Assembly (NCBI GenBank): GCA_021324635.1
Contig: JAJPIS010000099.1
Span: forward strand, 1 to 41,308
Source: Gemmatimonadota bacterium
Lineage (GTDB): Bacteria; Gemmatimonadota; Gemmatimonadetes; Gemmatimonadales; Gemmatimonadaceae
Length of the DNA stretch: 41,308 nucleotides
Direction of reading: 5' to 3'
The position numbers were made by a program, and so were the translations under genes. The notes under the pieces were generated by a model, which was not told the DNA's origin, made no database searches, and saw only the letters and a program-made list of their open reading frames with translations. Below are positions 2,232-20,128 of the stretch, one piece after another. The first letter of the stretch is position 1; each line of letters starts with the position of its first letter.

Positions 2232-2555
2232 ATGGCTAGGCCAAAGAAGAAGGTCCCGTCCGACGGAGCGCTTCGGCCGGGCGCCCGCGGCGGGGCCCCG
2301 CGGAGTGCAGTCGGACGCCGGCGGAAGAACTTCATCCTCCCGCAGGTCAAGATCGACCGCGTCCGGCGCCTCCTCGGCGCGGCGACCGAGACGGAAGCCG
2401 TCGAGCGAGCGCTGGACGCGGTCGCCGATCTCGACGCGTTCCGTCGAGAGACCGATACCGCGCTCGCGTGGATGATCGGGCGTGGGGGAATCGAGGACCA
2501 TTTCGACTCGGTGCCCCTCCGGGGCGGAGCCGGGCGCAGCCAGTCGTCGGGATGA
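2232..2555 (+). CDS. VapB-type antitoxin of a type II TA module
   Basis: This 107-residue basic protein probably neutralises the PIN toxin encoded immediately downstream. Residues about 35-65 (NFILPQVKIDRVRRLLG, then TETEAVERALD) have the strand-helix-helix pattern of ribbon-helix-helix antitoxins. The first 30 residues are rich in Lys, Arg, Gly and Pro and are probably disordered. The acidic and aromatic C-terminus would be the toxin-binding part. The ATG is set by the GGAGGCGG ribosome binding site. Its stop overlaps the toxin start as ATGA, indicating translational coupling. The palindromes just upstream suggest autorepression. Confidence 0.75.
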   Translation: MARPKKKVPSDGALRPGARGGAPRSAVGRRRKNFILPQVKIDRVRRLLGAATETEAVERALDAVADLDAFRRETDTALAWMIGRGGIEDHFDSVPLRGGAGRSQSSG

Positions 2556-2998
2556 TCTGGCTCGTCGACACGAACGTCTACATCCGCGCGATCCGGGACA
2601 CTGCCTTTGGTGCAGCGTTTCGGACCTGGCATGCCCGCGCGGCGCCGCGCCTCGCGCTGAGTGCCGTGGTGCTGCACGAGCTGCTGGTCGGTGCCTCGGA
2701 CCGTCGCCTTCGGCATCACATCGAGACGCAATTCGTTGCGCCGTTTGGCGCGCGTGGGCGTCTCCTGGTGCCGACCGCGCGCACGTGGGCGCAGGCCGCG
2801 GCCGCGGATCGGTCGCTGCGACGCGACCTGCGGCATCGCGTCCTGCTCGAGCGCCGCAGCTTCGCCAACGACCTGCTGATCGCCCTCTCGGCCCGCGAGA
2901 TCGGGGCAACCATCGTGACCCACAACACGCGTGATTTCGCCCTCATCGCATCGGCGACCGGCGTCCGCTTCACCGAGACGCTCCCCGAGTCGCCGTGA
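2552..2998 (+). CDS. VapC-type PIN-domain toxin
   Basis: The 148-residue protein is a PIN-fold ribonuclease of the VapC toxin type. The conserved acidic residues are visible: Asp6 in IWLVDTNVYI, Glu in VVLHELLVG, Asp in FANDLLIALSAREIG, and the C-terminal THNTRDF. These would coordinate the Mg2+ or Mn2+ for RNA cleavage. The start is fixed by the ATGA overlap with the antitoxin stop at 2553-2555. The gene looks intact. The RNA target cannot be inferred from sequence. Confidence 0.82.
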   Translation: MIWLVDTNVYIRAIRDTAFGAAFRTWHARAAPRLALSAVVLHELLVGASDRRLRHHIETQFVAPFGARGRLLVPTARTWAQAAAADRSLRRDLRHRVLLERRSFANDLLIALSAREIGATIVTHNTRDFALIASATGVRFTETLPESP

Positions 2999-3022: not shown

Positions 3023-3382
3023 ATGACGAGCACCCGTAGGCAGCGGCGGGCGCGCGTGTCCTACGACGCCAGGAAGGAGCGGTTCGAGGTCACGCTCGTG
3101 AACGGCGCTGCGTTCAGTTTCCCGGTCGCACTGGTGCCGACCGTACGGGACGCGACGCCGGCGGAACGCGCGGACGTGCGCATCAGCACGAGGGGCGAGG
3201 GGCTCCGGTGGGACGCGCTCGACCTCGATATCCTCTGGCCCTACCTCGCGGGCATGCTGCTCGGCCACGCCGCCTGGCGGCGCTCAGCCGCGGCGGCGCC
3301 CGGCCGGGTCTGGAGTCCGGCCAGGGCCCGGCCATCGCGCGAGAGCGGGAAGAAGGGCGGCCGGCCGCGAAAGACCGAGTGA
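3023..3382 (+). CDS. DUF2442 domain protein
   Basis: A 119-residue protein whose residues about 12-80 match the DUF2442 pattern: a beta-rich segment (RFEVTLVNGAAFSFPVAL), then a variable loop, then GLRWDALDLDILWPYLAGML. The family has no established biochemistry. Members often sit beside DUF4160 proteins in small TA-like gene pairs, but no DUF4160 partner is present here. The basic tail (GKKGGRPRKTE) is AT-hook-like. The gene starts 24 bases after the PIN toxin stop and may be co-transcribed with the TA pair. A second DUF2442 gene lies at 22943-23248. Confidence 0.7.
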   Translation: MTSTRRQRRARVSYDARKERFEVTLVNGAAFSFPVALVPTVRDATPAERADVRISTRGEGLRWDALDLDILWPYLAGMLLGHAAWRRSAAAAPGRVWSPARARPSRESGKKGGRPRKTE

Positions 3383-3497: not shown

Positions 3498-3878
3498 CTA
3501 CTGGCCCGCGGCCGGCAGCGGCTGGAGCGTCTGGTTGCACTCGTGGGTCTTGGTCTGCGACCAGTTGTTGGTCGCAGCGTCGATCACGATCGGGACGAGG
3601 CCGAAGATGACGTCGGCGATCACCCACCCCGCGCCGGTGCCCTTCTGAAGCTGACAGCCGATCTCGGCGAACCCCGGCTTCTTGAACACCACGGTGTGAC
3701 TCTGGGTGTTCGAGAGGTTCACCGTCAGCGGCGTCGTGCCGACCGGGTTCCCATCGACGAACACCTGGGCGCCGGTCGGCGCCGAGTCGAAGCTGAAATC
3801 GTGCTGCTTGCTCCCCAGCACCGTCGCACACCCGGTCGTGAGCCACGCCAGTGTCGCGACCGCCGCCCTTGCACGCAT
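3498..3878 (-). CDS. PEGA-domain lipoprotein
   Basis: A 126-residue predicted lipoprotein. A short hydrophobic signal ends in LTTGC with the candidate lipidated Cys at residue 17. A PEGA-like beta domain follows (SAPTGAQVFVDGNPVGTTPL, then VVFKKPGFAE), a fold common on surface-exposed proteins. A hydrophobic segment (WVIADVIFGLVPIVIDAAT) near residues 83-101 may touch the membrane. The ATG at 3878 is preferred over a longer open frame because it sits behind GAGGAACGAGG and gives a proper signal peptide. The gene converges with the DUF2442 gene. Its function is unknown. Confidence 0.7.
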   Translation of the reverse strand: MRARAAVATLAWLTTGCATVLGSKQHDFSFDSAPTGAQVFVDGNPVGTTPLTVNLSNTQSHTVVFKKPGFAEIGCQLQKGTGAGWVIADVIFGLVPIVIDAATNNWSQTKTHECNQTLQPLPAAGQ

Positions 3879-4075
3879 TGTCCTCGTTCCTCGGGTTGAA
3901 TGTCGGAGACCGGGCAAGACGGTGCAGGTCCGGGCCGAGCCCGTGCCCGCCGCCCCGCACGACGAGAACTGTAGAAGGGGGGTCTGACAGCCCGCCGCGA
4001 ACCCGCCGGGTACCGGGCGACGGAGGTGACGTCCAGTCAGGAGACGGGATGCGGGCGCGCCGCCGTGGCGCCCGC

Positions 4076-5065
4076 TCAGCTGCTCGGCCGCAGTGGGCTG
4101 CGCGAGACGATGCGGCGCAATCGCTCGGCGATCGCCAGGCGCGCGGCCTCCGGCGCCAGTACTTCGGCCTCGGGACCGTACTGGAGCACGTGCCGCACAG
4201 CCCACTGCACGTCGGCCAACGGATGCTCGACCGTCACCGATCCGTCCGCCGCGACCGGCACGCGCTCACGCTCCGCGATCCACGGCGCGACCGCCGGCGA
4301 GTAACGCACGCGGAGGGCCTGCGGTTCCTCGGCCCGGAACACTCGCCCGTCCTGGACGACGCTCTCGAGCGAGAACTCCGCCGGTATGGCGAAGGTCGCC
4401 GGGAGCAGCACGGCGTCGTCGATCCGGTCGAGCCGGAAGATGCGGATCGCCTCCCGGTCGTCGCAGTGCCCCACGAGATACCACGCGCCACGGGAAGCGA
4501 CGAGCCCGTACGGCCGCACCACACGCGCAGTCGACTGCTCGGCGCCCGCGGCGCGGTACGTGATCCGGAGCGTCCTCCGCTCCCGAACCGCTTGGCGGAT
4601 GGTCGCGAGGTGCACAGGATCCGCCACCGCCCCGAGATCCCCGTGACGCACGGCGGCGGGGACCGGGTCGGCCGGCAACCTGGCGACCGCCTTCCGCAAC
4701 CGCTCCCGCGCCCGATCGATGGTCCGCTGCTCCGCCGGTACACGCTCGCGCCGGAGCATGGCGAGCCCCAGCTCGAGCGCCGCGAGCTCCGCCGCGGTCA
4801 GCCCCATGGGACGCCTGAAGTGCGGCGCGCGCACGGACACGTCCCCGCCTCCCTCCGCGCCACCCTCGATGTACATCTCGAGCCCGGGCACGAACGCGCC
4901 CGGCTCACCCACGCGTGTCGCCAGCGCGAAGAGATCGTGCGCCACGGTCGCCCGGTCCACCCGAGCCAGCCGCGCGATCTCATCGATCGAATGCGCGCGA
5001 CCGCCGGTGAGCCGCGGGATGACCGACAGAAGCCGCCGGAGCTGCGCGGCCGCGTCGGCGGTCAC
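4076..5065 (-). CDS. WYL-domain transcriptional regulator, PafC-like
   Basis: A 329-residue regulator with an N-terminal winged-helix segment (IDEIARLARVDRATVAHDL), a middle WCX-like region, and a WYL domain marked by WYLVGHCDDREAIRIFRLDR. It starts at a GTG overlapping the stop of the upstream WYL gene (GTGA at 5062-5065). Tandem WYL genes in this order resemble PafB-PafC, the heteromeric activator of LexA-independent DNA-damage genes in mycobacteria. The divergent neighbours are AddB/AddA-like repair genes, which fits that role. Assignment as a PafC orthologue is inference; WYL regulators are numerous and many do other jobs. Confidence 0.75.
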   Translation of the reverse strand: MTADAAAQLRRLLSVIPRLTGGRAHSIDEIARLARVDRATVAHDLFALATRVGEPGAFVPGLEMYIEGGAEGGGDVSVRAPHFRRPMGLTAAELAALELGLAMLRRERVPAEQRTIDRARERLRKAVARLPADPVPAAVRHGDLGAVADPVHLATIRQAVRERRTLRITYRAAGAEQSTARVVRPYGLVASRGAWYLVGHCDDREAIRIFRLDRIDDAVLLPATFAIPAEFSLESVVQDGRVFRAEEPQALRVRYSPAVAPWIAERERVPVAADGSVTVEHPLADVQWAVRHVLQYGPEAEVLAPEAARLAIAERLRRIVSRSPLRPSS

Positions 5066-6183
5066 GGTCGCCCCTCGTACACCCCCAGCGTCGCACGCGC
5101 CAGCCGGTCGAACGCCGATAGCAGCTCCGGCGGCTCGATGGGCAACGCGTTCCCGCCGAACGCGAGGAGCCACCGCGCGAAGGTCTCGACCCGGCGGACC
5201 TCGAACCGCCGCCGGCCGGGTGACCCGCTCACCGGTGCGCCCAGCTTCATTGCCGCCCGCACGGCGCCCGACGATCCGATGAAGTCCACCACCGCATCGA
5301 GCACTGCGCCATCGCCCAGGCTCCAGGCCGAGCGCGTTCGCGCGTGCTGCTCGAGGCTGAACGACGGCGGGATCTCGTAGTCGGCGGACTGCGCCCGCGC
5401 GCGGTTCACGATCACGCCGCTCATACGACCCAACCGGAAGGTCCGGAGTTGCCCACGTCCGCGGTCGCGGGCGACCAGGTACCAGTGCGATCCGAGGAAG
5501 GCGAGCCCGTACGGCTCCACGTCGCGGCGCCCCGTCACGCCCGGCGCCGGAGCGGCGTAGTCGAACGTCGTGGTCTTGCGGTCGAACACCGCGCGCGCCA
5601 GGAGCGCGAACGTGCGCTCGTCGACGCGCTCGGCCACGACCCGCTCCGCACCGCGGACGCCGTCGATGCCGGGCAGATCGAACGTCAGCGTCCGCATCGC
5701 GCGCTCGGCGTCGGCGGCCAGTAGCGGGTCACCGAGCTGCCGCACCCGGACGGCGGCCTCGGCGACCGCCGCCAGCTCGTCGGGCTCGAACGCGAGCAGC
5801 GGGAGCGAGCGGTACCCGGGCTGCGGCATCGGGCGTGTGGCCGCGCGCCCGCTCGTCGCTACGGCGAGGAAGGGCAGATAGAAGTCACGCGGACGGAGCC
5901 GGTACCCGAGCACCTGCGGGTCGCCGAACGCCACCGTCTCGATCGGCACCCCGAAGACGCGGAGCTCGTCCTTGTCCCGCTCGAACATCCGCATCAGCGC
6001 CGGCCCGTCGCTTCCCGCGTACGCGGGCACGTCACGTCGAAGCTCCTCGAACGACGCCGGAAAGGCCCGCGACAGGAGCGCCGCGAGGAGATCGATCCAC
6101 CGCTGGAGCTTGGCGTCGCTGGTCGCCGCCTCACGGCTGCCCCGCCGGGACGCCGGCCGCCCTCTGGTCGGTCGCTTCGGCAT
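5062..6183 (-). CDS. WYL-domain transcriptional regulator, PafB-like
   Basis: A 373-residue WYL regulator. The N-terminal helix-turn-helix region carries FPASFEELRRDVPAY and the FERDKDELRVFGVPIETV block seen in PafB-type proteins. The WYL domain contains GSHWYLVARDRGRGQLRTFR. The ATG at 6183 gives a basic leader (PKRPTRGRPASRRG); an open frame extends to 6363, but that extension looks non-coding. No strong ribosome binding site is visible. The gene is translationally coupled to the next WYL gene. It diverges from the AddB-like gene across about 400 bases, where a RecA-NDp-like promoter can be seen on the other strand. Confidence 0.77.
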   Translation of the reverse strand: MPKRPTRGRPASRRGSREAATSDAKLQRWIDLLAALLSRAFPASFEELRRDVPAYAGSDGPALMRMFERDKDELRVFGVPIETVAFGDPQVLGYRLRPRDFYLPFLAVATSGRAATRPMPQPGYRSLPLLAFEPDELAAVAEAAVRVRQLGDPLLAADAERAMRTLTFDLPGIDGVRGAERVVAERVDERTFALLARAVFDRKTTTFDYAAPAPGVTGRRDVEPYGLAFLGSHWYLVARDRGRGQLRTFRLGRMSGVIVNRARAQSADYEIPPSFSLEQHARTRSAWSLGDGAVLDAVVDFIGSSGAVRAAMKLGAPVSGSPGRRRFEVRRVETFARWLLAFGGNALPIEPPELLSAFDRLARATLGVYEGRP

Positions 6184-6579
6184 CGGTGCGACTACCGCGT
6201 GCTCGTCATTGGTCCGTCCTACAGTAGCGGGCGCCCGTCCTCGGCGACAGCGCCGCGGGCACCAGGACACGATCGATTGGCGGCCCTGGATTAGAGGATT
6301 CCAATGATTGGGCGCTCGCGCCGCCATCCGATCGATGTCGTCGCCCGCCGCCCGCCGCGCCATTGTGCCCCGCCAACCCAGGGTCTATTGTCAGCGCCGA
6401 GTGCGCCGACCCGGCGAAGGGCCCAGCCCGATGCCCACCACCTCCAACGTGGCACGGGGCACTGTCAGTCCGACCGCGTATCCTCTGGCCCGGGCGGCCA
6501 CGCGAGCGGGCCGCCGCCCGCCGCGCGCTCGAGAGCCACTGCGCCGGTCGTTCGTCGCATCTTCACCGGTGCTCCCCTG
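6184..6579. other. Divergent intergenic region between the WYL pair and addB-like gene
   Basis: These 396 bases separate divergent starts. An open frame from 6304 runs into the addB-like gene, but its first 92 codons (rich in Arg, Pro and His) resemble no protein I know and look non-coding. The region holds the candidate DNA-damage promoter at 6462-6484 and a solitary -35-like TTGTCAGCG at 6388-6396 with no matching -10. Confidence 0.6.
6462..6484 (+). promoter_or_regulatory. Candidate RecA-NDp-like (PafBC-type) promoter
   Basis: CTGTCAGTC, an 8-base spacer, then TATCCT. The mycobacterial RecA-NDp consensus recognised with PafBC is TTGTCRGTG-N8-TANNNT. This site matches 7 of 9 positions in the first element, has the exact 8-base spacing, and matches TANNNT in full. 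It points toward the addB-like start at 6580, 95 bases downstream. Function is inferred from the pattern and from the adjacent PafB/PafC-like genes. Confidence 0.45.
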
Positions 6580-9500
6580 ATGGCAGCCCTCCGCATGGTG
6601 GTCGCCCATGACCCGGGTCGCTTGCTCCGGCATGCGGCCAATGGATTCCTCGTCCGGCGGACCCCCACGGCAGGCGAGCCCTTCCCGACGGTGCCGTACC
6701 TCCTGGCCGTGCGCCAAGGCGGGCTCCGCGAGGACGTGATCGAGATGGCGGCCGCCGAGCGGGTGGCGGGCTGGTTCGACCCGCCACTCGCGATCTTCGC
6801 CGAGCTGCCCGCCTGGCTCGGTCTACCGGAGCGGGCGATCCTGGGCGACTACGAACGGGCGGTGCTCCTGGCCGCGATCCTCCGCGAGCAGGGGCAGAAC
6901 CTCTTCGCGCGACTCGACCGGCCGGCCGACTACGTGGACGCCGTCGATGCGCTGTTCGGCGACCTGATCGCGGACGGCGTGCCGGCGGCGCGGTTTCACG
7001 ACGCGCTCGAGCGCCGTCCCGGGCGCGACCTGTTCGAGCGTGGACGGGACGCAGACCTCGCCCGCGCCTACGGCGCCTACCTCGACCGGCTCGCCACGCT
7101 GGGGAAGAGCGACGGCCGCGACCCCTGGCTCGCCTGCGCCCGAGCGATCGAATCCGGCGCCGCGGATCTCGCGACATCGCTCGGCGGGCGCCGCGAGATT
7201 CGGATCGTCGGGCTCCAGGACCTGCGCCGCGGGTGGGGGCACCTCGTCCGTGCGCTCGCGGCCTCGCCAGCGCTCGACGACGTCATCGTGTACGGCACGA
7301 GCGCGCTGCCGGTCGACCTGCCGGGAGTCGTTGTCGATCGGCTCGACGAGCCCGACACGCCCGCGGCTCGCCTCTTCACGGCCGCGCCGCAGCGGACCGC
7401 GGCGACTGCGACGCTCCTCATCGCACCGGATGTCGACCGGGAGCTCGACGAGGTTGCGCAGCGCGTGCGGCAGGAGATCGAGGGCGGCGTGCCGCCGCAC
7501 CGGATCGCCGTCGTGGCGCGTCAGGCGCGGCCAGGCGTCGACCGCGCGATCGCATCGCTCGGCAAGATCGGCGTCGCCGCGACCGCGCGACGGCGGACGG
7601 CACTGGCCGAGATCCCGCTCATCCGCGCGATCGGCACACTGTTCACCGCGGCGGCCGACGGGTGGACCCGGAGCGGCCTCACGGAAATCGCCGAGCAGCC
7701 GTACCTCGAGTGCGGGCTCGCCGTCGACATCATCAACAAGATCGGGTACCGCCACCGCGTCGAAGGCCTGGCGTCCTGGCGGCGCGAGCTCCGCGCGTTG
7801 GAGGCGCAGTCGCGCGACCGGGCGCGTGGGGCAGCGGCGTCCGATGGCGGTCGCCACCCCGAGCGATCGCTGCCGCCGCCGGGGCGGGTGGCGGCCGCCC
7901 GCGAGCGGTTCGACCGGTTCGCCGAGCGCGCGGCGGAGCTCGACCGGGACCGCACGCTCCTGGGCTGGCTCGGGTGGCTGTCGCGGTTCCTGGCGGACGA
8001 CCCGTGGCGCCTCATGAGCGCCATCTTCGACGTGCCGGACGAGCAGTTCGAAGTCGCTCGGCTCGATCTGGCCGGATGGGACGGGCTCCGAAAGATCCTG
8101 ACCGAGTGGACTGGGGCGGTCGAGGCGTTCGGGGCGGGAGGCGAGGCGCTGAGCGTCGGGCAATTCGCGGTGCAGCTCCGCGCCTGCCTGAGCGGCGACG
8201 TGGCCCTCTGGACGACTACACACCGCGGAGTGCAGGTCCTCGAGGCGCTGGCCGCGGCGTATCGCTCCTTCGACCATGTCTTTCTCGTCGGGATGGAGGC
8301 GGGCGCCTTCCCGCGTCGGATGCCGCGCTCGCCGCTCCTGAGCGACGCCGACCGCGAGGCACTGGCCGACGCCGGTCTCCCCATCGAGCGCCGCGAGCTG
8401 TGGGACGCCCGCGAGCGGGAGCTCTTCCGCGTGCTCGTGGCCGGTGCACCGCGTCTGACGGTCAGCTACTCCCGTCTCGACGACGCGGGTCGTGAGGTGA
8501 TCCGCTCCACGTTCGTCGAGGAGGTGAGCGACGTGCTGGAGCTCCAGGAGACCGAGCTCCAGCCCTCCGCGGTCGTCGCCGATCGCATGCCCCTCTACCG
8601 AACCTCGGCCGCCCTCGCCGCCGCCGTCCACGGTGCGGGCATCGAACGGCTCCGGTTGAACGGCGAGCGCTCGCCCTACAGCGGGTGGATCGCCGACGCC
8701 GACCTGTCGACCTGGCTGACGACAGAGTTCGGCGATGAGCGAGTGTGGAGCCCGACGCAGCTCGAGGAGCTGGCGAAGTGCCCGTGGGCCTACTTCTCGA
8801 AGCGCCTGCTGCGTATCGAGCGGCTCGACGATCCGTCGGACGACATCCAGCCGATGGTGCAGGGTGGCGTGCTGCACACGGCGCTCCAGCGGTTCTACGA
8901 CGCGGCACGCGCGCGCGGCTCCGGCCCTGTCTTCCTGCGGGCTGGCGATGCGACCTGGGCGGAGCCTTTGCTCGACGACTGCGTCGACTCGGCGTTCGAC
9001 GAGGCCGCGGCGCGCGGGTGGCTCGGGCATCCCGCGTTCCGGGCCGCCCGGCGCGCCGAGGCTCGACGCGTGGCGCGTGGCTTCCTCGCCTGGGAGATCG
9101 GCCAGCACGAGGACATGTTCAATCCGCGGAAGCGGACCGCGTTCGCGATGATCCGCACCGGTGTCGATGGCTGTGAGCTGGCGTTCGAGGATATGGTGTA
9201 CGAGGGCGACGGCGTACGGCTTCGGTATCGTGGGTTCATCGATCGGGTCGAGGTGAGCGTCGACGAGCGGGCGCCGGGCCGGACGTTCATTGCCGCCTCC
9301 GATTACAAGAACACCCGGTACTCGACCCCCGGCGGGGGTCACAAGGACGCGTGGGCCGACGGTGTCGTACTTCAGGTTCCGCTCTACGCATACGCCTTGG
9401 CGCACCTCCGCCCGGACGACCGGATCGCGCGGGTGGATTACCTCGCGTTGAAGGGGCAGGAGGCGGTCCATCAGCTCCAGCTCTACACCTTCGACCACCG

Positions 9501-9702
9501 AGCCCGGACGGTCATCCCCGACCGCGATGCGAGCGCGCGGTTGAGCACCGCGCTCGACGTCGCCGTCGCACATGTCGTCCGGGCCCGGCGCGGGGAGTTT
9601 CCGGCGGCGCCGCCCATGTCCTGCTCCTGCCCCCCCTGGTGCCACGGCCGAGACATCTGCCGAGTACCAGGGGGGCCCAGGGACGCCTCGTGGGCGCGAT
9701 GA
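6580..9702 (+). CDS. addB: AddB-like subunit of a helicase-nuclease (PD-(D/E)XK nuclease)
   Basis: A 1040-residue protein resembling AddB/RexB, the partner of AddA in processing double-strand DNA ends for recombination. No Walker A motif is seen. The C-terminal third carries the PD-(D/E)XK nuclease: SPTQLEELAKCPWAYF, GGVLHTALQRFYD, then ASDYKNTRY with Asp908 and Lys910. Cys734 plus Cys1017, Cys1021 and Cys1027 (CSCPPWCHGRDIC) match the iron-sulfur staple that encircles AddB nuclease domains, although the spacing is C-x3-C-x5-C rather than the C-x2-C-x5-C of Bacillus. The ATG at 6580 is chosen because the sequence before it looks non-coding. Its stop overlaps the addA-like start (ATGA), so the two are made together. 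Confidence 0.82.
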   Translation: MAALRMVVAHDPGRLLRHAANGFLVRRTPTAGEPFPTVPYLLAVRQGGLREDVIEMAAAERVAGWFDPPLAIFAELPAWLGLPERAILGDYERAVLLAAILREQGQNLFARLDRPADYVDAVDALFGDLIADGVPAARFHDALERRPGRDLFERGRDADLARAYGAYLDRLATLGKSDGRDPWLACARAIESGAADLATSLGGRREIRIVGLQDLRRGWGHLVRALAASPALDDVIVYGTSALPVDLPGVVVDRLDEPDTPAARLFTAAPQRTAATATLLIAPDVDRELDEVAQRVRQEIEGGVPPHRIAVVARQARPGVDRAIASLGKIGVAATARRRTALAEIPLIRAIGTLFTAAADGWTRSGLTEIAEQPYLECGLAVDIINKIGYRHRVEGLASWRRELRALEAQSRDRARGAAASDGGRHPERSLPPPGRVAAARERFDRFAERAAELDRDRTLLGWLGWLSRFLADDPWRLMSAIFDVPDEQFEVARLDLAGWDGLRKILTEWTGAVEAFGAGGEALSVGQFAVQLRACLSGDVALWTTTHRGVQVLEALAAAYRSFDHVFLVGMEAGAFPRRMPRSPLLSDADREALADAGLPIERRELWDARERELFRVLVAGAPRLTVSYSRLDDAGREVIRSTFVEEVSDVLELQETELQPSAVVADRMPLYRTSAALAAAVHGAGIERLRLNGERSPYSGWIADADLSTWLTTEFGDERVWSPTQLEELAKCPWAYFSKRLLRIERLDDPSDDIQPMVQGGVLHTALQRFYDAARARGSGPVFLRAGDATWAEPLLDDCVDSAFDEAAARGWLGHPAFRAARRAEARRVARGFLAWEIGQHEDMFNPRKRTAFAMIRTGVDGCELAFEDMVYEGDGVRLRYRGFIDRVEVSVDERAPGRTFIAASDYKNTRYSTPGGGHKDAWADGVVLQVPLYAYALAHLRPDDRIARVDYLALKGQEAVHQLQLYTFDHRARTVIPDRDASARLSTALDVAVAHVVRARRGEFPAAPPMSCSCPPWCHGRDICRVPGGPRDASWAR
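9630..9675 (+). other. Inverted repeat inside the addB-like 3' end
   Basis: CCCCCCTGGT and ACCAGGGGGG form a 10-bp stem around the codons for the last Cys residues, ending about 25 bases before the addA-like start. It could tune translation of the downstream gene, or be a by-product of Pro/Gly-rich coding sequence. Confidence 0.3.
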
Positions 9703-12700
9703 TCGGTCGGTCGGCCGCGACGGGCCGCGCGGGACTCCAGCAGTTCACGCCGGGCGCCCACGGACCCGTGCCGAGCGACTCACAGTGGGAGGTGATCCGC
9801 ACCGTCGGGCGGCACCTGCTGGTCGCCGCCGGCGCGGGGACGGGCAAGACGTTCACGGTCGTGCAGAAGGTCCTCTACCTGCTCGGCGTCCCTGTCCGCG
9901 GCGAGGTATACGAGCCGGCGCTCCGGCTCGACCAGATGGCGGCGATCACCTACACCAACAGGGCTGCCGCCGAGCTCAAGGAGAAGATCCGGGCGGCGCT
10001 TCGGGCGGCGGGCCGCCGCGCGCAGGCAGCCGAGGTGGATGAGGCGCGGATCGGGACGATCCACAGCTTCTGTGGCGACATCCTGCGTGAATTCGCGCTG
10101 CGTCGCGGGCTCGACCCGGCGATGACGGTGCTCACGGAGCTCGAGAGTATCCAGCTCGCGTCCGAGAGCATCCGGAGCGTGCTGCTCGCGACCCTCCAGC
10201 CCCCGGACGGAGCAGTGATCGGCGCCGGCGATGGGGACCTGGGACTCGGCGTGATGCTCGATCGCCATTCACTGCGTGATGTCGAGAAGTGGGTGCGACA
10301 GTTGCTCGACCAGGGTGATGCGCTCCCGGCGTTGGCCGCCAGGGTCGGCGTGCTGCCGCCCGCCGAAGCGACCCTCGTCCGCCTGGCCCTGCGCGTGCGG
10401 GCGCGGATCGAGGAGCGGCTCAGGAGCGACGGCACCGTGGACTTCGATCGGATGATCACCTGGACGCGGGATCTCATCCGGGACGACGCGAGCGTGCGGG
10501 CCGCGCTTCAGCGGCGACTTCGCGTCCTGATCATCGACGAGTTCCAGGACGTCGATCCGGCCCAGCGTGAGATCGCCGATCTGCTCGGCGACCCGGCGAG
10601 CGGCCGACCGGACACTCCGCGACTGGTCTTGGTCGGTGATCCCAAGCAGAGCATCTATCGCTTCCGCAAAGCCGACGTGCGCGTCTGGCGGAGCGTCGAG
10701 CGGGACTTCATGGACCGGGCGTGGGGACGCGTGCTGCCGCTGGCCGAGAACCGCCGGAGCGTCCCTGGTGTGCTCGGCTTCGTGGATCACACGATCGGTG
10801 CGCTGCTCGACACTCCGGCCGAGCGTGGCGCGGGGCACCAGGACTTCGAGGTCCCGTACGCGCCGGTGGTGCCGACGCGGACGGACGGTCCGTGGCCGCA
10901 GGCGGTCGAGGTGCTCGCCGTGCCGGCGGACACGTCGGGCAAGGCGTACAAGGCCGGGCTGGTGCGCGCCAGCGACGCGGCGGCCGTGGCACGGCGCGCG
11001 TGCGAGCTGCACGAGCAGGGTGTGGCGTGGCGGGACATGGCGGTGCTCTTCACCGCGTGGGAGGCGCTCGACAGCTACGAGGCGGCGCTGCGGGCGGCCG
11101 GCGTGCCGACCTATGCGCTCCGGTCGGAGGGGTTTTACGATCGACCGGAGATCGTCGATCTGCTCGTGGCGCTCCGGGCGGTCCGCGACCCGAACGATGA
11201 CCGCGCGCTCGTCGGCTTCCTGCGCGGGCCCTGTGTCGGCCTGTCCGACGAGACCCTGCTCCGGATCGTGCGGCAGGCCTATCCGCCCTACTGGGGCGGG
11301 CTCCGCCGGGTAGTGCTGCCGGATGTCGGGGCGAGCGGGCCCGCGAGGGCGTCGGCCGATGCGGGAGCGGGGTCGTCCGACGGGAGGGGAACGGCCTCGG
11401 CGGCAGCGGTGTGTGGCGTCGCGAGTGCTCCGGCCGCCGAGGGCGAACGATTGCGCGCGGGGATCGCGCTGCTCGACCGGTTGGTGCCGCTTCGCGATCG
11501 GATGCCGATCCGTGCCCTCGTGGAGCGGCTGCTCGACGAGAGCGGATATCTGGCGCATCTCGCGCTCTTGTGGGGCTCGTCGTCGCAGCAGGTCGCGAAC
11601 GTCCGCAAGTTCCTGCGCGAGTTGGACGGCGTGCGTGACGTGTCCGTGAGCCACGTGCTCCGGGCGATCGCGGACGCGCGAATGCTCGGCGTCGAGCAGG
11701 GCGACGCTCGCCTCCATGGCGAGCAGGACGATGTCGTGACGATGACGTCGGTGCACATGGCCAAGGGGCTCGAATGGCGCGTGGTGTTCTGGTGCGACCT
11801 GATGCACGGGCTCAGGTCGCTCAACGAGAAGCTCGTGGTCTCGGGAAGCGACGTCGCGCTCGCCCCGGCGGGGGCGGCCGAGAAGTCCGACCCGACGGGG
11901 GCGTTCGCCCGGCTCAAGGCGCAGGCGCTGGCGGAGCGTGATGCGGAGGCGAAACGCCTCTGGTACGTGGCGGCGACACGGGCCAGGGATCTCCTCGTGC
12001 TCGGCGGGATCCCGCTCGGCGAGGGGGGCCGGTTTCGGGAGTCGCCCGCATTCGTGATCCGGGAGTCGCTGCGTGACGCGACGCTCGGTGGGCGCGCGTG
12101 CGTGCCGTATGCGGCCCGGAGCGGTGTGGAGTTTCAGGCGCTCGTGCGGTGCGTCGAGGTGATCGAGGAGTCGGCGCCTGCGCCGGGGATCGGCGCGTTG
12201 GGCGATCCGAGCGCGGTGCCGGGTCCGCTGCCGGCGATCGTGGTGCCGCGGAGTCGTGCGCGACATTCGGCGACCGAGCTGCTGGCGCTCGAGCGCTGTG
12301 GTCGGAAGCATTGGTTCACGTACGTGCTCGGCGTGCGCGAGCCGGAGCCGGTGCGGCGCGCACCGGACAGTGGCGCGCCCGCCGACCATCCGACGGCGAT
12401 CGAGCGTGGACTGATCGTGCACGACGTGTTGGAGCGGTACGAGGCGGACCGGGAGCTCGAGGCGTGGATCGAGGACGCGATCGGCCGCTGGGACGAGGAT
12501 GCCCCGCCGCCGGAGACGCCACGGGGCATTCGGTATCGCCGGTCGCTGTCGGCGGAGCTCGAGTCGGTGCTCGCCGACCCTCGGTACCGCGCCGTCTTCG
12601 ACCGGTCGGAGGCTCGCCGGGAGCTGCCCTTCCTGTACATCCGTGAGCCTGGCTTCTACGCGACTGGTCAGATCGACCTCGTCGCGCCCGGGGCCGGCGG

Positions 12701-13097
12701 GTACGATGTGATCGACGTGAAGACCGGTGATTGCGCGGCCGCTGACGCGTCTGAACGCGCCGAGCGGTACGCGATCCAGCGTGCGCTGTATACCGCCGCG
12801 CTGGAGGCCATCGGTGGCCGACCGGTCGCGAGCTTCGCCTTCCACTTCAGTCACGCCGGCGTGCAGATTGCGGCGCTGACCGATCGCGGCGCCGTCGGGG
12901 CCGAGCTTGCCTGCGCCGTCGAGGAGCTCTTGGCGGACCCGCCGGCGCTGACGGACCGGCCGGTGGAGTGCCGGTTCTGCGGGTATCGCGGGCGAAAGTG
13001 GTGTGCGGGCGTGGCGTCGAGTGCCGGAGCCGGTCGCGCCGCACCTGGGACGACGCGGCGGGTCGCTCCCGCGATCTCGCCGGAGAGAGTGGAATAG
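9699..13097 (+). CDS. addA: AddA-like UvrD helicase with PD-(D/E)XK nuclease
   Basis: An 1132-residue superfamily 1A helicase-nuclease of AddA type. Helicase motifs in order: Walker A GAGTGKT (45-51), ITYTNRAAAELKEKI, DEFQD at 280-284, LVGDPKQSIYRFRKADV, TSVHMAKGLEWRVVFW, and WYVAATRARDLL. The C-terminal nuclease has GQIDLVA (Asp993) and VIDVKTGD (Asp1006, Lys1008), then QRALYTAALEA. A CRFCGYRGRKWC tail follows. With the AddB-like subunit it should unwind and trim broken DNA ends to load RecA. The start is defined by the ATGA overlap at 9699-9702. A Ser/Ala/Gly-rich insert near residues 545-585 looks like a flexible linker. Confidence 0.88.
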   Translation: MIGRSAATGRAGLQQFTPGAHGPVPSDSQWEVIRTVGRHLLVAAGAGTGKTFTVVQKVLYLLGVPVRGEVYEPALRLDQMAAITYTNRAAAELKEKIRAALRAAGRRAQAAEVDEARIGTIHSFCGDILREFALRRGLDPAMTVLTELESIQLASESIRSVLLATLQPPDGAVIGAGDGDLGLGVMLDRHSLRDVEKWVRQLLDQGDALPALAARVGVLPPAEATLVRLALRVRARIEERLRSDGTVDFDRMITWTRDLIRDDASVRAALQRRLRVLIIDEFQDVDPAQREIADLLGDPASGRPDTPRLVLVGDPKQSIYRFRKADVRVWRSVERDFMDRAWGRVLPLAENRRSVPGVLGFVDHTIGALLDTPAERGAGHQDFEVPYAPVVPTRTDGPWPQAVEVLAVPADTSGKAYKAGLVRASDAAAVARRACELHEQGVAWRDMAVLFTAWEALDSYEAALRAAGVPTYALRSEGFYDRPEIVDLLVALRAVRDPNDDRALVGFLRGPCVGLSDETLLRIVRQAYPPYWGGLRRVVLPDVGASGPARASADAGAGSSDGRGTASAAAVCGVASAPAAEGERLRAGIALLDRLVPLRDRMPIRALVERLLDESGYLAHLALLWGSSSQQVANVRKFLRELDGVRDVSVSHVLRAIADARMLGVEQGDARLHGEQDDVVTMTSVHMAKGLEWRVVFWCDLMHGLRSLNEKLVVSGSDVALAPAGAAEKSDPTGAFARLKAQALAERDAEAKRLWYVAATRARDLLVLGGIPLGEGGRFRESPAFVIRESLRDATLGGRACVPYAARSGVEFQALVRCVEVIEESAPAPGIGALGDPSAVPGPLPAIVVPRSRARHSATELLALERCGRKHWFTYVLGVREPEPVRRAPDSGAPADHPTAIERGLIVHDVLERYEADRELEAWIEDAIGRWDEDAPPPETPRGIRYRRSLSAELESVLADPRYRAVFDRSEARRELPFLYIREPGFYATGQIDLVAPGAGGYDVIDVKTGDCAAADASERAERYAIQRALYTAALEAIGGRPVASFAFHFSHAGVQIAALTDRGAVGAELACAVEELLADPPALTDRPVECRFCGYRGRKWCAGVASSAGAGRAAPGTTRRVAPAISPERVE

Positions 13098-13434: not shown

Positions 13435-16400
13435 ATGGCTGACGTCATCATTCAGGATCCCGTCATCAACTCGCCGTTCGTCGAGCCGACCCGGCACTTC
13501 GAGTTCGGTGAACGGGGGATCACTGGCCGGATCAAGGATGGTGCGCGGCGCGAGTCCAGCTACTTCGTCCCGATCCCACAGGGGCGCCGCCAGACGGCGC
13601 AGCTCTCCCTGGAAGCAGAATGGACCGCGGACCGCATCAAGCCCAACGATGATGTGAACAGGGTGCGACTGCGCGTCGGTGCGTGGCGGCAGGGTGGATA
13701 CACGGGCGTGACGCCCACTACTGCCCGCCTGCTCCAGTACTGGACCGACTCCCAACGCGACAGGAAACTTTTCTTCTGTCAGGTCGAGGCCGTCGAAACA
13801 GCGATCTACGTCGCGGAAGTCGCCGGGAAGTTCGGGGACGCATGGATCGCCAACGGTCTGCGCGAGGCGAACACGATCGGTGGAAACCCGAATCTGTTTC
13901 GGGTAGGGCTCAAGATGGCCACCGGTTCCGGCAAGACGGTCGTGATGGGCATGCTCATCGCCTGGCAGGCGCTGAACAAGATCGCGAACCCCCAGGACAG
14001 CCGGTTCAGCGACGCCTTTCTCATCGTCTGCCCGGGGATCACGATCCGCGATCGGCTACGCGTCCTCCTCCCCAACGATCTCGACAACTATTACAAGCAG
14101 CGTGACCTCCTGCCGCCCGAGCTTCTGGCGCAGCTCGAGCGCGCCAAGATCGTGATCACGAACTATCATGCGTTCCTGCCGCGGGAGCTCGGCGACGCGT
14201 CCCGGCTGACGAAGTCGCTGCTGGGGTCCGGGACTTCGGGGGCCTTCACCGAGACGCCGGACCAGGTCGTACGGCGCGTCTGCCGGGAGCTCGGGACCAA
14301 GCGTGGCATCGTCGTCATCAACGACGAGGCGCACCACTGTTACCGGAGCCGTCCCGAGGCGGAGAACGGGGAGAATGGGGAGAAGGGGGAGAAGCTGAAG
14401 GGGGACGACCGTCGGGAAGCCGAGAGGCGCGACCAGGAAGCTCGCGTGTGGCTCTCGGGCATCGAGGCCGTCAACCAGAAGGTCGGCGTCAAGGCCGTCT
14501 ACGACCTTTCGGCAACCCCGTTCTTCCTGCGAGGATCGGGTTGGCCGGAGGGCACGCTCTTCCCGTGGGTCGTCTCCGACTTCTCGCTCATTGACGCGAT
14601 CGAGTCGGGAATCGTGAAGGTACCGCGAGTGCCCGTGGACGACAATCAGATGAGCGGCACTCTCCCCGCTTACCGCCAGCTCTGGGAGAAGATCCGGGGG
14701 GCGCTCCCCCGCCGAGGCCGAGGCACGGAGGCGGCGACGGGGGAGCCGAGACTCCCCAAGGAGCTCGAGAGCGCGATCCAGTCACTGTACCAGAACTACA
14801 GGAAGTACTACGAGCTGTGGGAGAAGAGCGACGCGCGCGCTACGAGCGACCTCACGGCGCCGGTGTTCATCGTCGTGTGCAGCAACACCAGCGTCTCGAA
14901 GCTCGCCTTCGACTACATCGCCGGCTGGGAGAAGCCCCTCGACGACCACACAACCGTTCTCGTCTCCGGAGCGCTCCCCCTCTTCAGCAACGTCACCGAC
15001 GGCCGTTGGACCTCTCGGCCCACGACGATCCTCGTCGACAGCACCCAGCTCGACTCCGGTGAGGGGATGAGCCCTGAGTTCAAGACGATCGCGGCCCGCG
15101 AGATCGAGGAGTTCAAGGAGGAGTATCGGCGCCGCTTCCCGGGGCGAGACGCCGAGGAGCTGACCGACGAGGATCTGCTTCGCGAGGTGATGAACACTGT
15201 CGGGAAGCCGGGCAAGCTCGGCGAGCACGTGAAGTGTGTCGTGAGCGTGTCGATGCTGACCGAGGGGTGGGACGCGAACACCGTCACCCACGTGCTGGGT
15301 GTGCGTGCGTTCGGCACGCAACTGCTCTGCGAGCAGGTCGTTGGACGCTCGCTACGCCGGAGAAGCTACGCGCCTGAGACGATCCGTGTGGCGCTGGATG
15401 GCGGCGTGGTCGAATTCACGGGGTTCGCGCCGGAGTACGCCGAGGTGTATGGTGTCCCGTTCTCGTTCATCCCGTGCGCCGGGTCGGCGCGGGAGCCGCG
15501 CATAGGGCCGGCTCCGACGCGCGTGCGGGCGCTTCCCGAGCGGGCCGGGCGCGGCATCAAGTTTCCACGCGTGCTCGGGTATCGGTACGAGCTGGCCGGG
15601 GATCGGGTATCGGCAGACTTCGGGCCCGAGGCCCGGATGACCCTCTCTCCGGAGCAGACCCCGACCAAGGTCGAGGTGGCAGGGGTGATCGGGCCGTTCG
15701 AGTTTCACACGCTGGAGGATCTGAGGCGGACGATCCGGCCGCAGCAGATCCAGTTCCTGCTCGCCAAGCGCGTGCTCGAGAAGTATTACCGATCCGAGCC
15801 TGGTGAGCCGCCGAAGGCCTGGCTGTTTCCCCAGGTCGTGGAGATCACTCGGCAATGGTACGAGCGTTGTCTCGACTGGAAGGACGATGCCTTCCCCCAG
15901 CTCCTCTACTTCAGCGAATTCGGCCACAACGCAGCGGATCGGATTTACCGAAGCATCGCCGCGGCCGAAGGTGGGAGCTCCCGCCTTCGGCCGATCCTCG
16001 CCCCCTACGAGTGGGAGCGGACGACCGACCGTGTCGACTTCGACACGACGCGTCCCGTGTACGTGACTCGAACCAAGTGCCCCGTGTCGCACATCGTCTG
16101 TGACACCGGAAGTTGGGAACAGAAAGTCGCGCAGTCGCTGGAGGACATGGATGAAGTCGTGTCCTACGTGAAGAACGACCGGCAGCCGGGCTTCTCGATC
16201 CCGTACACGATCAATGGTGACCAGCGGGACTACTACCCCGACTTCATCGCCCGGGTTGCCGACGGTCGTGGCAGTCGACCGGACGACCTCCTGAACGTAG
16301 TGATCGAGGTGAGCGGACAGCAGGACAAGCCCGACAAGCTCGCCAAAGTCGCGACCGCCCGTCAGCTCTGGGTGCCGTCCGTCAACAACCACGGCGGAAT

Positions 16401-16524
16401 GGGTCGTTGGGCATTCCTCGAAGTCACAGATCCGTGGAAGATCAAGTCCCAGCTCCGCGCGATGCTCGAGGCCACAGCGGTCGCCGCGTGGCGGGACGGG
16501 CAGTCCGGCGCACAACACCGATGA
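13435..16524 (+). CDS. Type III-like restriction subunit: SF2 helicase with C-terminal nuclease
   Basis: A 1029-residue restriction protein. The SF2 motor has KMATGSGKTVVMGML (Lys167), VVINDEAHHCYRS (Asp297-Glu298), DLSATPFFLRGSG, SMLTEGWDANTVTHVLG and CEQVVGRSLRRRSY. The C-terminus holds a PD-(D/E)XK-like core: YYPDF (Asp936) and VIEVSGQQ (Glu958), then LWVPSVNNHGGMGRWAFLEV. The residue two after Glu958 is Ser rather than the usual Lys. It would translocate on DNA and cut unmodified sites, with specificity from the methyltransferase 16 bases downstream. An in-frame 9-bp repeat (14362-14394) encodes an ENGENGEKGEK linker. I recall similar proteins annotated as BPTD_3080-family restriction endonucleases. 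Confidence 0.85.
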   Translation: MADVIIQDPVINSPFVEPTRHFEFGERGITGRIKDGARRESSYFVPIPQGRRQTAQLSLEAEWTADRIKPNDDVNRVRLRVGAWRQGGYTGVTPTTARLLQYWTDSQRDRKLFFCQVEAVETAIYVAEVAGKFGDAWIANGLREANTIGGNPNLFRVGLKMATGSGKTVVMGMLIAWQALNKIANPQDSRFSDAFLIVCPGITIRDRLRVLLPNDLDNYYKQRDLLPPELLAQLERAKIVITNYHAFLPRELGDASRLTKSLLGSGTSGAFTETPDQVVRRVCRELGTKRGIVVINDEAHHCYRSRPEAENGENGEKGEKLKGDDRREAERRDQEARVWLSGIEAVNQKVGVKAVYDLSATPFFLRGSGWPEGTLFPWVVSDFSLIDAIESGIVKVPRVPVDDNQMSGTLPAYRQLWEKIRGALPRRGRGTEAATGEPRLPKELESAIQSLYQNYRKYYELWEKSDARATSDLTAPVFIVVCSNTSVSKLAFDYIAGWEKPLDDHTTVLVSGALPLFSNVTDGRWTSRPTTILVDSTQLDSGEGMSPEFKTIAAREIEEFKEEYRRRFPGRDAEELTDEDLLREVMNTVGKPGKLGEHVKCVVSVSMLTEGWDANTVTHVLGVRAFGTQLLCEQVVGRSLRRRSYAPETIRVALDGGVVEFTGFAPEYAEVYGVPFSFIPCAGSAREPRIGPAPTRVRALPERAGRGIKFPRVLGYRYELAGDRVSADFGPEARMTLSPEQTPTKVEVAGVIGPFEFHTLEDLRRTIRPQQIQFLLAKRVLEKYYRSEPGEPPKAWLFPQVVEITRQWYERCLDWKDDAFPQLLYFSEFGHNAADRIYRSIAAAEGGSSRLRPILAPYEWERTTDRVDFDTTRPVYVTRTKCPVSHIVCDTGSWEQKVAQSLEDMDEVVSYVKNDRQPGFSIPYTINGDQRDYYPDFIARVADGRGSRPDDLLNVVIEVSGQQDKPDKLAKVATARQLWVPSVNNHGGMGRWAFLEVTDPWKIKSQLRAMLEATAVAAWRDGQSGAQHR

Positions 16525-16540
16525 GGGATGCAGGAAACCG

Positions 16541-19216
16541 ATGATGGCGAGAGCGCGAAAGACGGGTATCATGAAGGCTCGGGGCGGGGGGCCAACCCCG
16601 GTCGAGGCGATCAAGCACAGGGACCACCGGGTGAACATCCCGACCGAAGAGCTGCGCGATTTCGTGCGGACCGACGAGGATCGCCCGGGGACGCTGCTCT
16701 ATCCGCGCGACCCCTCGCTCGACCCGCAGCTTGTTTGGAAGGGGAAGGACGAGCAGGACCGGCAGGATCTCGCTGTTCCGGTCGTGCCGATCTTTATCCA
16801 GGAGAAGATTCACCCGCAGGCGCTGGTGGAGAACCTGCGCGAGACTGCCGCCCCGGGTCAGCCCGAGCCCGAGCTATCCCTCTTTGCCGACTTCAACGGC
16901 CTGGACGGTGACTTCGACAAGAAGGTCGACTTCTACCACCACGAGGGCCACTGGTCGAACCGGATGATCCTCGGCGATTCGCTGCTCGTGATGGCGAGCC
17001 TGGCCGAGAAGGAAGGGCTCAAGGGGAAAGTGCAATGCATCTACTTCGACCCGCCCTACGGGATCAAGTTCGGCTCGAATTGGCAGGTGAGTACGCGGCA
17101 CCGCGATGTGAGGGACGGGCGGGTCGAGGATGCGTCGAGGCAGCCAGAGCAGGTCCGGGCGTTTCGCGACACATGGCAACTTGGTATTCACTCGTATCTG
17201 GCGTACCTGCGGGATCGCCTCGCGACGGCCCATGAGCTACTGAGCGAGACGGGCAGCATTTTCATACAGATTGGCGATGAAAACGTGCATCTCGTGCGCT
17301 CTCTCCTCGACGAGGCTTTTGGGAGTGGCAACTTCTGCAGCATGATCTCGTTCCGTAAGACGAGCGCAGTCAGCAGCCCCGTTGCTCGGGTCAATGTGCT
17401 CGCCGGCGTATCTGATGTCGTGCTCTGGTATGCAAAGAATCGTGACTCGGTGAAGTACCGCCAACTCTACTTGGCCAAGGCGCTCGATACTGACGCCGCG
17501 GGAGTCTACTCCTGGCTTCAGGAGCCCGATGGCAGCCGGCGCCGAATGAATACCAGCGAGCGTCAAGGTGAAACCGCGCTCTTGAGAGGCAGTCGTGTAT
17601 TCCGTATAGACAATGCAACGTCGACGGGCCATAGCGCCGCTCTATCTCAGTCTTTGCAAGTCGACGGGAGGACCTACTCCCCCGGTGCTAACAAGCACTG
17701 GAAGACCACGGTGGAGGGGATGACGCGGCTGCTTTCAGCGCACAGACTGGTTCCTGCGGGGGTCACCCTCGGATACGTAAGATTTATTGATGATTTTCCG
17801 GCTTACCCACTCGTGAACCTGTGGCCAGACACCGGCACCGGGAGTTTTACGGACGAGAAGATCTACGTCGTCCAAACTGGGACGAAGGTCGTCGAGCGCT
17901 GCCTCCTTATGGCCACTGACCCCGGCGATCTCGTTCTCGATCCCACCTGCGGATCCGGCACAACCGCCTATGTAGCCGAGCAATGGGGTCGCCGCTGGAT
18001 CACGATCGATACTAGCCGCGTAGCGCTGGCACTTGCGCGCACGCGCCTCATGACGGCGAAATACCCCTACTACCTGCTCGCGGACTCCCGCGAAGGCATC
18101 GCCAAAGAGTCCGAGATTACCGGCCGCATCCCAGCCGAGCAGAAGCCTGAAGGCGACATCCGCAAGGGCTTCGTCTACAAGCGTGTGCCGCATGTCACCC
18201 TCAAATCCATCGCCAACAACCCCGACATCAAAGAAGGGATGTCGCGCGAGGAGATCGACGCGGCGATCGCCCGGCACGCCGAGATCGAGCTGTTGTACGA
18301 TAGGCCGTACGAGGATCCCAAGCGGGTCCGCGTCACCGGTCCCTTTACCGTGGAGTCGCTCTCCCCGCACCGGGTGCTCTCGATCGACGAGGAGCGGCCG
18401 GCGAGCGAAGTCGATGGGCAGCGGTCTTCGGCGCCGGCGCAGTTCGAGACGATGATCATCGACAACCTGCGAAAGGCCGGCGTGCAGAACACCAAGAAGG
18501 GCGAACGCCTCGTCTTCGACACACTCGACGTGCGCGCGGGCATTTGGATCCAGGCCGCCGGCACGTACACCGATGCCGCGGGCAAGGTCAGGCGGGTCGC
18601 GGTGTCGATCGGCCCCGAGCACGGCACCGTCGGCCCGATGCAGGTGAAGGAGGCGGCGAAGGAAGCGGTGCAGGGGGTCGGGTACGATACTCTCGTCGTC
18701 TGTGGCTTCGCCTTCGACCCACACGTGAGCGAGGAGGTGAAGCGTTACGGCACGCTCACCGTGCTGCCGGCCCGGATGAATCCCGACCTCTCGATGGGCG
18801 ACGAGTTGCTCAAGAAGACGGGCGCCGGCAATCTCTTCATGGTGTTCGGGGAGCCCGATCTCGACGTTCGGAAGACAGGCGATGGCAAGGTGGTCGTGGA
18901 GATTCGCGGGCTCGATGTGTACGACCCGACGACCGGCGAGATCCGGTCGTCCAGCACCGACGATATCGCCTGCTGGTTCATCGACACCAGGTACAACGGC
19001 GAGAGCTTCTTCGTTCGCCACGCCTACTTCACCGGGGCCCAGGAGCCGTACGAGAAGCTCCGGCGTGCGCTCCGCGCCGACATCGACGAAGCCGCCTGGC
19101 AGTCGCTCTACTCGACCGTGAGCCGGCCCTTCGACGCGCCGGACACCGGGAAGATCGCCGTGAAGGTGATCAACCACTACGGTGACGAAGTGCTGAAGGT
19201 GCTCGCGACCGTCTGA
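16541..19216 (+). CDS. Site-specific DNA methyltransferase, beta class (type III Mod-like)
   Basis: An 891-residue adenine-type DNA methyltransferase. Motif IV DPPY (170-173, FDPPYGIKFGSNWQ) precedes motif I DPTCGSGTT (467-475), the beta-class order. About 295 residues between them form the target-recognition region, with visibly lower GC (about 17240-17900) than the flanks. The protein has a long C-terminal extension (about 520-891) beyond the usual Mod length, shared with relatives that pair with this type of restriction subunit. It would modify host sites and guide the restriction subunit. The start is the first of two adjacent ATGs, behind GCAGGA. The gene appears co-transcribed with the restriction gene. 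Confidence 0.86.
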   Translation: MMARARKTGIMKARGGGPTPVEAIKHRDHRVNIPTEELRDFVRTDEDRPGTLLYPRDPSLDPQLVWKGKDEQDRQDLAVPVVPIFIQEKIHPQALVENLRETAAPGQPEPELSLFADFNGLDGDFDKKVDFYHHEGHWSNRMILGDSLLVMASLAEKEGLKGKVQCIYFDPPYGIKFGSNWQVSTRHRDVRDGRVEDASRQPEQVRAFRDTWQLGIHSYLAYLRDRLATAHELLSETGSIFIQIGDENVHLVRSLLDEAFGSGNFCSMISFRKTSAVSSPVARVNVLAGVSDVVLWYAKNRDSVKYRQLYLAKALDTDAAGVYSWLQEPDGSRRRMNTSERQGETALLRGSRVFRIDNATSTGHSAALSQSLQVDGRTYSPGANKHWKTTVEGMTRLLSAHRLVPAGVTLGYVRFIDDFPAYPLVNLWPDTGTGSFTDEKIYVVQTGTKVVERCLLMATDPGDLVLDPTCGSGTTAYVAEQWGRRWITIDTSRVALALARTRLMTAKYPYYLLADSREGIAKESEITGRIPAEQKPEGDIRKGFVYKRVPHVTLKSIANNPDIKEGMSREEIDAAIARHAEIELLYDRPYEDPKRVRVTGPFTVESLSPHRVLSIDEERPASEVDGQRSSAPAQFETMIIDNLRKAGVQNTKKGERLVFDTLDVRAGIWIQAAGTYTDAAGKVRRVAVSIGPEHGTVGPMQVKEAAKEAVQGVGYDTLVVCGFAFDPHVSEEVKRYGTLTVLPARMNPDLSMGDELLKKTGAGNLFMVFGEPDLDVRKTGDGKVVVEIRGLDVYDPTTGEIRSSSTDDIACWFIDTRYNGESFFVRHAYFTGAQEPYEKLRRALRADIDEAAWQSLYSTVSRPFDAPDTGKIAVKVINHYGDEVLKVLATV

Positions 19217-19275
19217 CCGTGTGGGCTGCCGGCAGAGAGGCCCTGCCTGCTGAGTCGGCTGTCTGGTGGTGCGAG

Positions 19276-19304: not shown

Positions 19305-19342
19305 AGAGCAGGATTCGGTCTTTCTTCGGTGAGAGAGGGCTC

Positions 19343-20101: not shown

Positions 20102-20128
20102 GCACCGCCTGACCGACTACGCACGCGT

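Follow-up and report, generated by a model that had tools for sequence, protein, structure and literature searches.

The closest described counterpart of the locus reported here is PafBC of mycobacteria, a regulator made of tandem or fused PafB-like and PafC-like proteins with helix-turn-helix (HTH), WYL and WCX domains, which together with its sigma-adaptation promoter has been studied in Actinobacteria. The consensus of this promoter, RecA-NDp, is published as tTGTCRgtg-8 nt-TannnT (PMC5656591), and the regulon in Mycobacterium smegmatis is reported to include RecBCD and AdnAB (PMC8223512). The window analyzed here is a stretch of 41,308 bp, the whole of contig JAJPIS010000099.1 (assembly GCA_021324635.1) of a Gemmatimonadota bacterium, in which two tandem WYL regulator genes, here called WYL1 and WYL2, diverge from a pair of AddAB-like helicase-nuclease genes. 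The WYL pair is probably a local, accessory PafBC-type activator of AddAB-like end processing, acting via promoters that flank it.

Like mycobacterial PafBC, the locus has PafB-like and PafC-like HTH-WYL-WCX proteins with the PafB recognition helix, sites with the TGTCR core and N8-TANNNT spacing, and end-processing helicase-nucleases among its predicted targets. However, it belongs to another phylum, in which its occurrence is patchy (WYL1 in 103/395 genomes), and its extended core is YTGTCASACC as opposed to the mycobacterial TTGTCRGTG (the core of M. smegmatis recA P1 being TTGTCGGTG compared with CTGTCACAC). It also differs in having few sites (three strict ones in the source genome), with none at recA, and in its association with nuclease and conflict genes. 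The element of this phylum is regarded as a variant and not as the actinobacterial element itself. The locus is predicted to work like PafBC, but as neither the full TTGTCRGTG element nor a site at recA was found, we do not assign it to the actinobacterial regulon.

Other described systems share some of these features. DriD of Caulobacter is also a WYL activator, reported to respond to single-stranded DNA (ssDNA) (PMC12340889), but is described as a homodimer (PMC11804915). The WYL regulators BrxR and CapW likewise have genes for DNA processing or defence as neighbours; they are described as homodimeric repressors (PMC11804915) and not as a PafB/PafC pair. With AddAB helicase-nucleases, the window shares an AddA-like helicase, two PD-(D/E)XK nuclease domains and the addB-addA gene order, but its proteins fall far under the equivalog cut-offs and are accessory among relatives (15/149 genomes). 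A full-text search of open-access papers found no link between PafBC and gemmatimonads, and what appears to be new here is that a second phylum has predicted PafBC-type promoters, located at nuclease and conflict genes. Shared geometry combined with a divergent extended core offers a natural experiment on the contacts that matter, the promoter signature offers prediction of target genes from sequence, and ssDNA sensing would be tied to end-processing nucleases able to act in repair or against phage.

The WYL pair and the AddAB-like genes

Gene starts and ends were taken from codon-based gene calls. The PafB-like regulator WYL1 (5062-6183, minus strand, 373 amino acids (aa)) and the PafC-like regulator WYL2 (4076-5065, minus strand, 329 aa, GTG start) diverge from the genes of an AddB-like PD-(D/E)XK nuclease subunit (6580-9702, plus strand, 1040 aa) and an AddA-like UvrD helicase with a PD-(D/E)XK nuclease (9699-13097, plus strand, 1132 aa). 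This arrangement, proposed in the initial annotation, is confirmed by the gene calls and Pfam, and within each tandem pair the two genes share 4 bp, an overlap typical of operons.

WYL1 has a Pfam WYL domain, and its only sequence matches in the PDB at E 0.01 are PafB or fused PafBC chains (9fnd_X at 1.3e-19, 7p5x and 6sj9), with no match to DriD at this threshold. WYL2 has the Pfam domain HTH_PafC (PF19187, 43.4 bits, cut-off 32) as well as WYL and WCX, and its best PDB match is the fused PafBC chain 6sj9, with the PafC half top-scoring (2.2e-22). The two genes are thus homologs of pafB and pafC respectively, as the initial annotation had surmised. The sequence RMFERDK of WYL1 aligns with the recognition helix of PafB, two arginines of which have been proposed as DNA readers (PMC6789036), while the window protein carries L at the first F position of the PafB pattern F-x-R-x-F-x-R. 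FERDK is found in WYL1 of 32 of the 33 tandem pairs described below and in WYL2 of none (0/33), and residues R65, E68, R69, D70 and K71 of the helix are invariant in 31/31 aligned WYL1 sequences.

Mutation, single or grouped, of M. smegmatis PafB residues R181, Y196, R204, R208, R211 and R214 is reported to have abolished ssDNA binding (PMC11804915). By sequence alignment all six have counterparts in the window WYL1, and the WYL2 residues R211/R214 are invariant in 30 aligned sequences; these residues suggest that the pair may be activated by ssDNA. Predicted models of both proteins are weak (predicted template modelling score 0.34-0.35), resemble PafB and DriD chains to a similar degree and do not tell PafB from DriD, with WYL1 giving Z 14.5 for 9fnd_X (267 residues aligned, root-mean-square deviation 24.7) and 13.5 for DriD (182, 5.7), and WYL2 giving 14.2 for DriD (182, 6.3) and 13.4 for 9fnd_X (252, 27.0).

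Two sets of loci were compared (L and G numbers denote loci and genomes). The discovery set comprises 39 of 40 genomes with WYL1 among 149 relatives, the window included and a fragmentary hit in G038 left out, and the validation set comprises 60 further loci from a phylum-wide WYL1 search. The pair is tandem in 33 discovery loci and fused in 5 (38/39 together), the other (L132) running off its contig end with a single WYL gene readable, and a tandem or fused pair is present in 56/60 validation loci. No match to WYL1 was found in a phage collection or a plasmid collection.

The AddB-like protein scores 82.3 bits with Pfam PDDEXK_1 and possesses the motifs GxIDRV, DYK and QxPLYA with a conserved Cys, and the AddA-like protein has Walker A, DEFQD and nuclease motifs, giving UvrD-type helicase motifs in AddA and nuclease motifs in both subunits. 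Their NCBIfam equivalog scores are far short of the cut-offs (AddB 38.5 against 903.7, AddA 204 against 707.65), and they are named AddAB-like only for this reason. The open reading frame of AddB begins at 6304, but this start was rejected as unlikely, since full-length relatives align only from residue 77-96. Residue 93 is an in-frame ATG, at position 6580; the intergenic gap to WYL1 is therefore 396 bp.

Sites flanking the pair and their spacing

The pattern TGTC-N12-TANNNT has exactly the spacing of RecA-NDp (TTGTCRGTG-N8-TANNNT), and in the window it occurs strictly at two places, which flank the WYL pair. One is a predicted PafBC-type promoter, CTGTCAGTC-N8-TATCCT (6462-6484, plus strand), facing the AddB-like gene 95 bp before its ATG, and is present with exact RecA-NDp spacing as the initial annotation claimed. 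The other, which that annotation did not include, is a second predicted promoter of this type, CTGTCAGAC-N8-TACAGT (3968-3990, minus strand), lying 89 bp before the ATG of a PEGA-domain lipoprotein-like gene (3498-3878, minus strand, 126 aa, PEGA 36.7 bits), its putative target. In L059, L113 and L294, proteins resembling this PEGA protein are encoded close to WYL pairs or sites, and that of L294, a different genome, also has a site upstream.

A scoring matrix built from 45 sites of other genomes ranks the 3968 site first in the window (24.3 bits) and the 6462 site second (23.8), the third reaching 14.0, while the maxima in 60 shuffles were 12.3 +/- 2.9 with the largest at 21.9. In the 4.09-Mb source genome, TGTCRSNC-N8-TANNNT, a pattern partly shaped on the two window sites, is found at three places, two of which are those sites, and the sole match to YTGTCASACC-N7-TANNNT is the site at 3968-3990. 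Matching to RecA-NDp with mismatches was dropped as a sole test, being near background: with up to two mismatches the genome had 108 places, compared with 70 when the pattern was reversed, and with up to three the window had 20, compared with 14.5 +/- 3.5 after shuffling. The 6462 match alone says little. Among the listed genome matches, ordered by mismatches, there is no exact match to the full TTGTCRGTG -26 element.

TGTC-N12-TANNNT was first noticed by eye in upstream regions of the discovery loci, where it is present at 11/46 heads compared with 0-2 at each of 19 other spacings between 4 and 23. Since the discovery set includes the window and the pattern had been picked by eye beforehand, only the spacing counts of the validation set are independent. 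Across all 60 validation loci an N12 site was found at 30/145 key genes, against 0-2 at other spacings. When 14 of the 60 loci were dropped (12 from the genus of discovery loci L130/L131 and two from the previously seen G007), the preset spacing again formed a clear peak, with N12 upstream of 26/117 key genes against 0-1 at each of the 19 other spacings. These independent sites lie upstream of WYL1 (16/44), the fused pair (1/2), AddB (4/7), VWA proteins (4/10) and HP0729-like proteins (1/4), while WYL2 has none (0/41), fitting its position inside the operon. Unrelated genes carry an N12 site in 7/540 cases in the validation loci, and in the independent loci in 5/376 cases against 0-3 at other spacings. 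Site density in the independent loci is 4.3 times higher within 1.5 kb of the pair than further off. The consensus of the 45 sites from other genomes is approximately YTGTC(A/G)(C/G)ACCC-N6-TANNNT, in which TGTC and TA-N3-T are imposed by the pattern and only the remaining columns are informative.

Dependence of the motif on the pair, and linked genes

The motif depends on the presence of the WYL pair. In the phylum search, where presence of WYL1 was set at E 1e-20 and a diverged pair or a gap in an incomplete genome scores as absent, WYL1 was found in the 103 genomes mentioned above. YTGTCASACC-N7-TANNNT occurs at 89 places in the 395 genomes compared with 22 for the reversed pattern. Genomes with a strict site number 50/103 with WYL1 and 14/292 without (odds ratio 18.7, p = 4e-22), a count that is not fully independent, since most of the relatives that revealed the motif are among the 395 genomes. 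It excludes seven matches that represent a single near-identical repeated coding sequence, and with these the figures are 51 and 20 genomes. In the three of these repeats that were inspected (L139-L141), the match falls within a long coding frame, probably ileS judging by its protein sequence. The reversed control is present in 10/103 genomes with WYL1 and 11/292 without, a slight bias (p = 0.04) that is too small to explain the difference. Counted by site, the strict pattern and the reversed control give 68 against 10 in genomes with WYL1 and 14 against 12 in those without.

The pair is also linked to AddAB and RecBCD genes. Among the 149 relatives, WYL1 is present in 40 and AddB in 15, and WYL1 is found in 11/15 of the AddB-bearing genomes compared with 29/134 others (Fisher p = 1e-4). 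By taxon name 14 of the 15 AddB loci are Gemmatimonadetes, Gemmatimonadaceae or Gemmatimonadales, and one is Chloroflexota. Near the pair in the 39 discovery loci there are AddAB genes in 10 and RecBCD genes in 5 (15/39 together, with RecC and RecD of L114 exceeding their NCBIfam cut-offs), as well as DUF2779 proteins (4), TM0106-type RecB-like nuclease-helicases (4), HP0729-like proteins (8) and VWA proteins (5); in the 60 validation loci, AddAB (7), VWA (10) and HP0729-like (4) genes were found. AddAB lies divergent to the pair in the window, L049 and L050, upstream in the same direction in L052, L054 and L116, convergent in L059, L122 and L209, and downstream in L223, and with several gene orders it is the linkage that is kept and not the order. 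This recurrent linkage, together with the site upstream of four of the seven independent AddB genes, supports the suggestion of the initial annotation that end processing is under local control by the neighbouring regulators.

Other potential targets were compiled from sites on other contigs or far from the pair, picked blind to gene content, and the list is a description and not a test of enrichment. Sites were found upstream of RecC (L279), three AddB-like PD-(D/E)XK proteins (L282, L291, L301), Cas3-type helicases (L285, L164), an SNF2 helicase (L284), ARPP-1 proteins (assigned by Pfam in L302 and by similarity in L295 and L303), an ADP-ribosylglycohydrolase-phosphatase (L270), a TY-chaperone (L157) and VWA proteins. 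The same holds for the DUF2779 proteins of L142-L144, whose genomes have no detected WYL1. The remaining targets are a phosphoribosyltransferase (L292), proteins of no known kind, or sites with no start within 250 bp.

The strict sites of L142, L143 and L144 end just 7 bp before the start codon of the DUF2779-like gene and, if used, would give nearly leaderless transcripts. The VWA protein, of approximately 425 aa, accompanies the pair in the validation set more often than any other partner (10/60) and frequently has a site upstream (L118:13106-14431, L208:2986-4254, L213:11272-12540, L248:4199-5464, L296 and L298). The HP0729-like protein (L118:11751-13019, L250:2031-3218) scores 85 bits against an NCBIfam cut-off of 250. 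In L119 (12628-15491) the WYL pair adjoins BREX brxB and brxC-type genes. The 420 bp upstream of AddB are nearly identical in L048 and L051, which belong to different genera (genomes G076 and G075), and one of the two AddB copies carries an internal TAA; this likeness may reflect recent transfer or a binning error.

Proposed function, alternatives and flanking genes

Control of addAB by the neighbouring WYL pair is supported by this comparative evidence. WYL1 and WYL2 most likely form a PafBC-type heterodimer, as predicted from homology, which would be activated, most likely by ssDNA in the WYL domains, and would then let the housekeeping RNA polymerase use YTGTC(A/G)(C/G)-N10-TANNNT promoters. 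The 6462 promoter would drive an addB-addA operon encoding an enzyme that degrades or resects DNA ends, and the 3968 promoter would drive the PEGA lipoprotein gene. In this scheme we infer DNA binding, activation rather than repression, an ssDNA ligand, and induction by DNA breaks or phage. It is possible, though we consider it doubtful, that the PafBC switch in Gemmatimonadota is a mobile alarm for immunity and not a housekeeping repair regulator, with ssDNA from phage or broken DNA triggering swappable weapons (AddAB, RecBCD, DUF2779 and TM0106 nucleases, Cas3, SNF2, ARPP/ADP-ribosylglycohydrolase systems and VWA proteins) over which YTGTCASACC-N7-TANNNT confers control.

A number of observations weigh against activation of addAB by the pair. 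In the window the pair has no strict site of its own, and 23/46 independent loci have no strict site at any key gene. Linked AddB genes keep CTGTCAG in L049 and L050 but with poor -10 hexamers (CAAGCT and GACGTT), that of L052 has no site, and two AddB genomes without detected WYL1 (G075, G076) retain CTGTCAG. The WYL arginines are a common feature of WYL domains in general and are no proof of an ssDNA ligand. The recA gene of the source genome has no PafBC-type site within about 370 bp upstream, and only three strict sites occur genome-wide. Judged by recA and by this count, the mycobacterial-style regulon for which the initial annotation proposed a check is not supported, and with no site at recA a recA-centred damage regulon was rejected for this genome.

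If the pair were instead a repressor and the site its operator, the ligand could be, for example, an ADP-ribose-type molecule, as has been suggested for WYL factors of ARG/ARPP conflict systems. Some motif targets elsewhere are indeed ARPP-1, ADP-ribosylglycohydrolase with phosphatase, and TY-chaperone genes, repressing WYL factors that sense ADP-ribose have been predicted for such ARPP-type systems (PMC9503650), and BrxR and CapW are reported WYL regulators of defence genes (PMC9122601, PMC9122588). However, the site is asymmetric, and the -10 hexamer at its end is spaced as in an activator-dependent promoter. In the WYL1-addB gap no -35/-10 pair of the sigma-70 type was found, and WYL1 retains the PafB recognition helix and matches only PafB by sequence, so that repression is considered unlikely. 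TGTC-N12-TANNNT might also represent a promoter type widespread in the phylum and recognized by a different factor, making the WYL link indirect, and the sites at unrelated genes of the validation loci (7/540) and in 14 of the 292 genomes without detected WYL1 would agree with this. Such a class is very unlikely given that sites barely exceed the reversed control in genomes without WYL1 and clearly exceed it in those with WYL1, and that their density rises near the pair.

AddAB, the restriction endonuclease, methylase, DUF5131 and TcmP genes could further be seen as one defence island, a joint anti-phage system under a BrxR-like WYL regulator, as genes continue on the same strand to 21208. This is also very unlikely, as addA and the endonuclease gene are separated by 337 bp and WYL1/WYL2 are a PafB/PafC-type pair; moreover, no restriction, methylase, DUF5131 or TcmP gene lies near AddAB in 13 relatives, and on this lack of linkage a joint system with the downstream restriction genes was rejected.

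Downstream of AddAB (13435-21208, plus strand), the window has genes for a BPTD_3080-family restriction endonuclease (NF046055, 1124 bits), a type III-like methyltransferase, a DUF5131 protein and a TcmP-like protein (PADLOC PDC-M30 models), and the G+C content falls to about 62-66% across this region. Two DUF2442 genes (3023-3382, plus strand; 22943-23248, minus strand) bracket the whole WYL-AddAB-restriction block and are possibly the edges of an inserted island. There are also PIN-domain genes with small partners at 2552-2998 (plus strand) and 36295-37061 (minus strand), the second with a MazE-type antitoxin domain, and these resemble toxin-antitoxin pairs.

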